From positions 1-64,000 of the forward strand of contig JAGAIW010000171.1 of the NCBI GenBank assembly GCA_017626305.1: DNA of 64,000 nucleotides, in the 5' to 3' direction. Under the pieces are notes generated by a model that saw only the letters and a list, made by a program, of their open reading frames with translations, searched no databases and was not told the origin of the DNA. Of the stretch, positions 1-5,026 are shown piece after piece. The DNA is from Clostridia bacterium. GTDB lineage: Bacteria > Bacillota > Clostridia > Christensenellales > Borkfalkiaceae. The number at the start of each line of letters is the position of its first letter. The stretch's first letter is position 1. A program made the position numbers and the translations under genes.

Positions 1-9
1 CAAAAACAC

Positions 10-38
10 TTGATAAAAGCTTTTTTATGTGGTATACT
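10..38 (+). promoter_or_regulatory. Sigma-A promoter of the structured RNA
   Basis: TTGATA at 10-15 and TATACT at 33-38 are separated by exactly 17 bases, a near-consensus vegetative promoter. Transcription should start near 45, about 220 bases ahead of the first plausible coding start, so it produces a long leader or a free RNA. Confidence 0.8.
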
Positions 39-44
39 AATTAT

Positions 45-249
45 GCTCAACAAAATTAAATGTGAAAGATTAGCGGTATTTTATCCTTAAAGGGATAATT
101 ATGCCCCTTTTTAACATAACTACTTTTGAATGTGGTAAAAGCGCAAATTCCACTAAGTAGTTATGGCTATACCGTAATCTTTTAGTTTTGTTGGGCGACA
201 AGCGGAGTTGCGTTTTTCGGTGCGTCAACTTGCTTGGCGCACTTTTTTT
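45..249 (+). ncRNA. Candidate structured ncRNA or attenuator leader, about 205 nt
   Basis: Seen in sequence: a closing stem 65-79/169-182 (14 bp, one bulged G73) encloses a 6-bp hairpin (81-86/93-98) and an 11-bp perfect stem (115-125/155-165), giving a three-way junction. Downstream lie three overlapping alternative hairpins: 195-199/207-211, 206-212/223-230 (one bulge), and 220-228/234-242 followed by seven T. The last is an intrinsic terminator and the middle one would block it, the usual layout of transcription attenuation. GCCC at 103-106 could pair with GGGC at 193-196 as a pseudoknot. Length and architecture suit either a riboswitch-like leader of the gene at 263 or a free RNA such as the raiA-type or 6S-type classes. 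I cannot assign a family by eye. Confidence 0.65.
220..249 (+). terminator. Intrinsic terminator just upstream of the small ORF
   Basis: A nine-pair stem (220-228 with 234-242, one G-U pair) with a five-base loop is followed by seven T. It ends only three bases before the Shine-Dalgarno of the 263-613 gene, so that gene is expressed only by read-through or anti-termination. Confidence 0.75.
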
Positions 250-262
250 ATGGAGAAAAGAT

Positions 263-613
263 ATGCAATACGAACAAGACGAATTATACGCAACCAAAAT
301 GGGAATTTTGCAAAAATACGCAAGAGCCATAGGCGTAAAAGCGCCTACGTGCTTAAATAAACGAGCATTGATACGGGAAATTATGCTCATTCAAGACGGC
401 AAAAAGCCACCCTGCACACCCAACAAAAAGGGTAGACCCGTTAAAGATAGCGGTGAACCTATTCTCATCAACAATACCGTCGTTGAGAATATCGACGCCG
501 AAAAGAAAAAACCGATAACGCTAGACCCCAAAGAGATAAAAGAATATGTTAAACAGGAATGTATTGCCCGCATTTTAAGCGAAATAGAACGAAAGTTAAA
601 CAACCTTTTATAA
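263..613 (+). CDS. Small protein with Rho-N/SAP-like N-terminus
   Basis: A 116-residue basic protein. I chose the ATG at 263 over the longer frame from 188 because GGAGAAAAG lies just upstream and the longer frame would start inside the upstream terminator hairpin. Residues about 12-48 (MGILQKYARAIGVK then LNKRALIREIM) resemble the helix-extended-loop-helix of Rho N-terminal or SAP-type nucleic-acid-binding modules. A Lys/Pro-rich linker and a short charged C-terminal helix follow. Function is unknown. Its position behind an RNA with terminator and antiterminator folds suggests RNA-linked control, which is inference. Confidence 0.7.
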   Translation: MQYEQDELYATKMGILQKYARAIGVKAPTCLNKRALIREIMLIQDGKKPPCTPNKKGRPVKDSGEPILINNTVVENIDAEKKKPITLDPKEIKEYVKQECIARILSEIERKLNNLL

Positions 614-637
614 ATCCTTTCGGTATTGACCATAACG

Positions 638-770
638 GTCATTCTGAACGAAGTGAAGAATCCCTTCATACGTAGTCCGCGTTCTCTTCCATGGGATTCT
701 TCACCCTTCGGGTTCAGAATGACGTTTGGGGGACGAGTTGGTTTTCTTCCGCTTTCGCGTTAGAATGACG
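638..770. repeat. Dispersed inverted-repeat element, copy 1
   Basis: The unit reads GTCATTCTGA...GAAGAATCCC, then an inverted GGGATTCTTC...TCAGAATGAC, with a shorter third arm ending at 770. The same modules recur at about 17.0-17.3, 19.9-20.3 and 36.4-36.6 kb. Short frames read through it are not genes. Such 'CATTCTGA/GAAGAATCC' modules are known as dispersed repeats in many bacterial genomes. Confidence 0.85.
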
Positions 771-4797: not shown

Positions 4798-4971
4798 AAG
4801 TGATATTTTTAGCCTTATAGTTAAAAGTGATATGCAAGATAACTCTTGCGTTATATTTTGACCCGTGGTCAAAGTGATATTATATTTGCCATAACTTTCA
4901 CGCAAGTGAAAATATCACTTTGCGTTAGCAAAATATCACGCCGATAGGCATATCACTTGCCGTTAGGCAAA
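4798..4971. repeat. Array of mini-hairpins framed by inverted AAGTGATAT units
   Basis: AAGTGATAT occurs at 4798, 4825 and 4872 in direct orientation, then as ATATCACTT or ATATCAC at 4912, 4933 and 4950 in inverted orientation. Between them sit at least six small perfect hairpins (for example 4834-4849, 4858-4872, 4897-4911, 4920-4932, 4940-4949, 4957-4971), several with a GTTA or GCAA loop. There is no coding frame. The half-sites face each other, so the block is an imperfect large palindrome. It fills the 350-base gap between gap and the AraC gene. Confidence 0.8.
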
Positions 4972-4978
4972 TATAGTT

Positions 4979-5026
4979 GTGACGTAGCGATTTCTCGCTA
5001 CGTCACTAATCCGTCGGGATTTTTTT
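4979..5026. terminator. Double hairpin downstream of gap and the AraC gene
   Basis: A 12-bp perfect stem (4979-4990/4995-5006) has a GAAA loop when read on the minus strand. A 5-bp stem (5008-5012/5017-5021) with a T run follows on the plus strand. They probably insulate the convergent gap and AraC transcripts. Confidence 0.6.

Follow-up and report, generated by a model that had tools for sequence, protein, structure and literature searches.

A multicopy leader RNA of Clostridia that probably acts as a riboswitch-like transcription attenuator

We analyzed a window of 64,000 nucleotides, the whole stretch of DNA under study, from the Clostridia bacterium contig JAGAIW010000171.1. We found that positions 44-249 probably encode a riboswitch-like conditional transcription attenuator that acts in cis and belongs to an uncatalogued RNA family. 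Judging from the conserved pairings, each gene that follows a copy appears to be switched on or off through the choice between a terminator and an antiterminator. Comparison of the copies shows an aptamer-like domain, composed of the predicted helices P1, P2, and P4, just after a conserved promoter and followed by an expression platform. It also shows that a platform strand, with the consensus AUCGGAGUUUGCGUUUU, has two alternative predicted partners: the downstream segment ACUUCGGU, with which it would form the antiterminator, and the apical P4 strand AAAAUGCAAAUUCC, with which it would form a pseudoknot. The ACUUCGGU segment also belongs to the predicted terminator hairpin. An earlier note on this DNA had proposed a regulated leader of the riboswitch or attenuator type, which is strongly supported by the covariation of mutually exclusive helices and by the position of genes in about 250 copies.

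A structured RNA behind a conserved promoter

The candidate leader RNA (44-249, about 205 nt) is a member of a multicopy RNA family and lies, like all features of the locus described below, on the plus strand. It is preceded by a predicted promoter (10-38), with the -35 box TTGATA at 10-15, a 17-nt spacer, and the -10 box TATACT at 33-38, which forms part of the extended -10 element TGG-TATACT (30-38). The sequence thus bears out the near-consensus promoter that had been described earlier. A TATAAT-like -10 box with at most one mismatch was present in 221 of 244 family copies, compared with 19% of random windows, and in 172 of those 221 copies it ended 5-6 nt ahead of P1. The only conserved promoter found in the family copies was the one upstream of P1. 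The predicted fold energy of the RNA strand was -69.7 kcal/mol, compared with -46.6 +/- 4.4 kcal/mol for shuffled sequences (z -5.3, 0/200).

A Shine-Dalgarno sequence, GGAG (252-255), is located directly 3' of the terminator, which is its typical position in homologues. The putative controlled gene (263-613) encodes a protein of 116 residues that resembles Rho N-terminal domains. The arrangement claimed previously, a terminator directly ahead of the ribosome site of this open reading frame, was confirmed, with the T-run at 243-249 followed by GGAG and the start at 263.

Helices of the aptamer-like domain

The fold and the alignment of homologues identify an outer closing helix, P1, formed by 44-56 and 183-196, which the earlier note had overlooked. 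The alignment, A4, comprises 96 distinct copies, and P1 and the antiterminator were both part of the model used to fit it. In A4, 99.8% of P1 cells were paired, a percentage that is biased upward by this fitting, as is that of the antiterminator, and double changes were found at 9 of 10 pairs.

The fold and the homologues also support P2 (65-79 with approximately 169-182) and P4 (115-125 with 155-165). Because these two helices were too variable to align, each copy's own strands were compared with strands exchanged between copies. The P2 duplex had a mean energy of -16.1 kcal/mol with native strands and -8.9 kcal/mol with swapped strands, and for P4 the values were -17.4 and -6.9 kcal/mol. Of the three-way junction proposed earlier, P2 and P4 therefore stand by both fold and strand exchange, while its third element, the AU-rich local hairpin UUAUCC-UUAAAG-GGAUAA (81-98), is predicted in the window copy but is variable, and its segment is missing from short homologues.

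The apical module of P4 (127-152) has the consensus GAAUUUG-RUAAAAUG-CAAAUUC, and its local hairpin, at -2.5 kcal/mol in the copy of the window, is predicted to be weak there. The most conserved segment of the whole family is G-R-UAAAAUGC, a single-stranded loop. Conserved nucleotides were present in both the junction and the loop of the family copies, and an unpaired NAAUA follows P1 in 73% of copies, compared with 7% of random windows within the same RNAs. A conserved upstream open reading frame starting in the AUAAAAAUG loop was considered and ruled out, as the AUG is changed to ACG or GCG in many copies.

Mutually exclusive structures in the expression platform

The 5' strand of the antiterminator occupies 200-217, of which 200-210 pairs with 226-235. 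The predicted intrinsic terminator (220-249) consists of a hairpin at 220-242 and the T-run, and shares the strand 226-235 with the antiterminator. These overlapping structures are as the earlier note described them, and both covary. Double changes were found at 6 of 11 antiterminator pairs in A4. For the terminator, which like the long-range helix described below was left out of the A4 model, 98.5% of cells were paired and double changes were found at 5 of 10 pairs. Shifting the partner of P1, the antiterminator, or the terminator by one to three columns abolished the covariation signal each time. An absence of covariation in homologues, named earlier as what would speak against the structure, is ruled out.

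A platform position shared by both structures was paired with its antiterminator partner in 109 of 117 cases (shuffled mean 55, maximum 74) and with its terminator partner in 114 of 117 (shuffled mean 57, maximum 73), where the shuffles ignore relatedness and so overstate the significance. This dual covariation of one base is hard to explain unless both of the predicted structures are used. The conserved and mutually exclusive pair of terminator and antiterminator is that of an attenuating leader.

We also found a long-range helix. The apical P4 strand, with the consensus AAAAUGCAAAUUCC, and the segment GGAGUUUGCGUUUU, located just 3' of P1, share 14 bases of complementarity. In the window, the switch strand AAAAGCGCAAAUUCC (137-151) is predicted to pair with GGAGUUGCGUUUU (204-216), which lies within the 5' strand of the antiterminator. 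If P1 stays formed, the helix of AAAAUGCAAAUUCC with GGAGUUUGCGUUUU is a loop-tail pseudoknot, and its pairing would block the antiterminator, making it an anti-antiterminator. Across 238 copies, native strands paired at -16.1 kcal/mol and swapped strands at -13.6 kcal/mol, with the best of 50 swap means at -14.0 kcal/mol. In the short subtype the values were -14.8 and -11.1 kcal/mol. In the long subtype alone they were -16.7 and -16.0 kcal/mol, a weak separation that reflects the almost invariant sequence of this subtype. In A4, 98.8% of the cells of this helix were paired, with double changes at 4 of 14 pairs, one of them in 12 copies. In the short variants (<190 nt), the separate P4 domain is absent and both sides of the long-range helix are replaced. 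Thus AAAAAUGCGGAA is matched with UUCCGCAUUUU in the variant L230, and CGUUAGUCUC with GAGGCUAGCG in L235.

The predicted energies of the competing structures in the window copy are -14.3 kcal/mol for the pseudoknot, -15.1 kcal/mol for the antiterminator, and -11.6 kcal/mol for the terminator. The first of the alternative hairpins listed in the earlier note (195-211, GCGAC/GUUGC) is real in the window, at -5.5 kcal/mol, but it is only weakly conserved and nearly invariant in sequence. As a conserved alternative it was rejected, and the pseudoknot with the apical strand takes its place.

Genes downstream of the RNA

The RNA lies in a 5' leader position with a gene next on the same strand, as an attenuating leader does. 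A Shine-Dalgarno-led start was found within 250 nt past the terminator in 209 of 245 copies, compared with 28% of random positions. In approximately 15% of the copies no following gene was recognised, and tandem copies without genes exist. In a set of loci collected with a sequence pattern (see below), the median distance from terminator to gene start was 15 nt among the matches listed.

The downstream genes are diverse and enriched in lipoproteins and leucine-rich-repeat (LRR) surface proteins, without a uniting pathway. Among the matches listed, a lipobox-like motif, by a crude motif test, was found in 34% of 101 downstream proteins and in 7% of other open reading frames of the same loci, and a hydrophobic N-terminus in 58% and 29%, respectively. 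The Pfam family LRR_5 was found in 15 of 99 downstream proteins among these matches, which also included zinc ribbons, dockerin, Listeria-Bacteroides repeats, Big_2, and SHOCT, as well as an EcoRI-type methylase, AMP-binding enzymes, and MazE/AbrB-like proteins. A small Cys-rich family (ITGIxLTPGNxGKDCLGNGEH...CCCNECDYL) was observed after the RNA at L261, L268, L271, L278, L280, L288, L096, and L107. The absence of a shared pathway, like the copies without genes, speaks against the attenuator reading, and it means that the genes give no lead to a ligand. Gene sets without a pathway are unusual for metabolite riboswitches and are known for second-messenger classes.

The 116-residue protein of the window matched neither Rho_N nor any other Pfam family at E-values up to 10, and nothing significant was found in Pfam, PHROGs, or NCBIfam. 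Its nearest relatives are the N-termini of open reading frames of mostly about 500 residues, to which it is 30-46% identical. Two of these larger frames were tested and matched Rho models with E-values of about 1e-54 to 1e-69, below NCBI's cut-offs. The Rho-N-like label given earlier therefore holds by indirect homology to Rho-family proteins, but not through any Pfam match of the protein itself. A gene of this kind was seen after only two copies of the RNA, that of the window and that of L037, where a similar small protein comes directly after the RNA. Divergent Rho-family proteins of about 500 residues were observed at L242 (208-1821, minus strand) and L244 (232-1794, minus strand), and many related genomes contain open reading frames of similar size that match the small protein, as does the window's own genome on contig C14.

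Copies and distribution of the family

In total, 251 distinct copies of the RNA family were collected. Using BLAST among relatives, copies were found in 21 of 61 genomes. A covariance model (R1) built from 16 copies had matches in 57 of 297 genomes sampled from the order and in 64 of 291 sampled from the class. When 12 genomes were scored in full, each was found to contain 7 to 12 copies. Across 398 phylum-wide genomes, which include few members of the class, R1 found no match beyond the window's own genome. Searching with a 23-base pattern of the expression platform gave at least 119 loci from named genomes, of which, among the matches listed, 117 are recorded as Clostridia and all as Bacillota; nearly all of these are from metagenome bins, mostly from the gut. 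Although the pattern covers only 23 of about 205 bases, R1 recovers the RNA, mostly at full length, around these loci. They include Pumilibacter intestinalis CLA-AA-M10 (L171) and Lachnospiraceae bacterium MD329 (L181).

The RNA had no match in the phage and plasmid collections and was found in 3 of 2.9 million viral contigs, and on these grounds a phage or plasmid origin was rejected. The three contigs (L193, L194, and L195, from IMG/VR) each carry an equal-scoring copy, at L193 ahead of a zinc-ribbon protein gene, and could be prophage or host DNA.

Neither the RNA in the window nor 33 homologue loci had a match at the gathering score to the Rfam 15 covariance models, and a permissive cmscan of window positions 1-700 gave chance-level matches only. 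The known families suggested earlier as first candidates (raiA, 6S, and riboswitch classes) thus found no match by cmscan at the locus or in its homologues. The sole gathering-score match in the window is a Gut-1 RNA (RF01706) at 4907-4979 on the minus strand, with 52.7 bits. Further copies of Gut-1 flank the RNA at L014, so relatives carry Gut-1 too.

The window begins at a contig edge, and an exact match to its first 141 nt is found at the ends of two further contigs of the same genome, C93 and C102. The window edge is therefore a repeat boundary of the assembly, and the sequence upstream of the window start is ambiguous between repeat copies. On C93, three tandem units are spaced about 260 bp apart, each led by its own promoter. 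Units 1 and 2 end in their own terminators, and unit 3, which is identical to the window start, is cut by the contig end. Full copies of the RNA, about 70-72% identical, form a tandem on C93, a single one lies on C187, and the RNA model adds a further copy on C89. In addition, at the far end of the window's own contig (G000 C142), the 3' portion of the small-protein gene occurs a second time with 98% identity and in the opposite orientation (138363-138673, L002), which suggests a recent duplication of this gene and perhaps of its leader too. An imperfect palindrome (GTCATTCTGAAC...GTGAAGAATCCC) with 69 matches in the same genome is located directly 3' of the small-protein gene (614-780) and looks like a MITE or REP-type repeat.

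Discussion

The pairings described above suggest how the leader could work. The spacing of the promoter would place the transcription start at P1 or within a few nucleotides of it. When the pseudoknot forms, the antiterminator would be blocked, the terminator would form, and transcription would stop at about position 249. If instead the apical strand is engaged by its local hairpin or by a bound ligand, protein, or RNA, the antiterminator would form and the downstream gene would be read. Some signal presumably controls the choice between the two states. Our first guess for it is a small molecule, and our second guess is a protein or RNA factor. The gene under control would be that of the Rho-N-like small protein in the window, and elsewhere mostly genes for surface proteins, lipoproteins, and small accessory proteins.

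The second guess corresponds to a protein- or RNA-controlled attenuator, in which a trans factor acting on the apical P4 strand or the A-run shifts the balance between terminator and antiterminator. This is a substantial possibility, if short of the favoured one: it fits the covariation data equally well, the diversity of the genes suits a global factor, and the most conserved segment is a single-stranded loop with no obvious pocket. A free trans-acting sRNA, whose terminated 205-nt product uses AAAAUGCAAAUUCC or GGAGUUUGCGUUUU to pair with other copies or targets while read-through is secondary, is improbable. Any use of the promoter would have to yield the terminated product, every copy has its own promoter and terminator, and gene-less tandem copies occur together with the approximately 15% that lack a recognised gene. 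However, a covarying antiterminator would be useless in a plain sRNA, and the 209 of 245 copies that lead a gene have the ribosome site just past the terminator.

A mobile DNA cassette or MITE-like repeat, with hairpins that serve mobility and not regulation, would suit the multicopy nature, the tandem arrays, the one near-identical duplication in the genome, and the diverse accessory genes. We consider it very unlikely given the three-way covariation of mutually exclusive transcript structures, the strand-specific placement of promoter and ribosome site, and the lack of matches in phage and plasmid collections, with just 3 viral contigs. Least likely of all, at a very small probability, is a leader autoregulated by the Rho-N-like protein, which the earlier note had raised. 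In its favour are the resemblance of the window protein to Rho N-termini, a domain type able to bind nucleic acid, and the similar protein encoded after the copy at L037, but nearly all other copies precede unrelated genes. Autoregulation therefore cannot explain the family, is rejected as its function, and would be a local elaboration at most.

The leader read as a riboswitch-like cis attenuator resembles known attenuating riboswitches in having a 5' aptamer-like domain closed by P1 and followed by an exclusive antiterminator and intrinsic terminator, and resembles preQ1 and fluoride riboswitches in the pseudoknot that joins a loop to the 3' tail. It differs from attenuating riboswitches in that the RNA has no Rfam class match, its genes have no common pathway, and its expression platform is itself conserved and covarying. 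Cyclic-di-GMP riboswitches (GEMM) occur in many copies per genome, at times as tandems, ahead of surface and accessory genes of diverse kinds. The present family is likewise multicopy, with such genes and with tandems, but its fold differs and it has no Rfam GEMM match. T-box leaders share with it the long leader and the choice between terminator and antiterminator in Firmicutes; however, there was no match to the T-box covariance model, the characteristic T-box antiterminator sequence was not seen by eye, and the genes are not amino-acid related. The raiA, 6S, and Gut-1 RNAs are also structured RNAs of Firmicutes or gut bacteria, but cmscan finds none of them at the RNA locus.

No description of the family was found in the literature searched, which took in the human-microbiome RNA survey PMC8040213 apart from its supplementary candidate lists. 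That survey holds thousands of unnamed RNA candidates, among which parts of the family may already be listed, unanalysed.

A more specific and tentative reading is that the RNA may represent a riboswitch class of its own, responding to a ligand or second messenger that is likewise new and operating as a conserved four-helix switch of local hairpin, pseudoknot, antiterminator, and terminator, and that the gene-less tandem copies may also act as trans RNAs. As the expression platform covaries, the switching mechanism is directly testable. The record of Pumilibacter intestinalis CLA-AA-M10 bears the title of a named strain and not of a metagenome bin, which may open the way to experiments. The RNA is present in roughly a fifth of the sampled genomes of the order and class, mostly from uncultured bacteria, with as many as a dozen loci in a single genome, and it links surface proteins, lipoproteins, and small accessory proteins for which there is otherwise no annotation. 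It suggests that gut Clostridia have an intracellular signal in common. If the RNA were indeed a new riboswitch class, the surface and accessory genes under its control would belong to several families of these bacteria.
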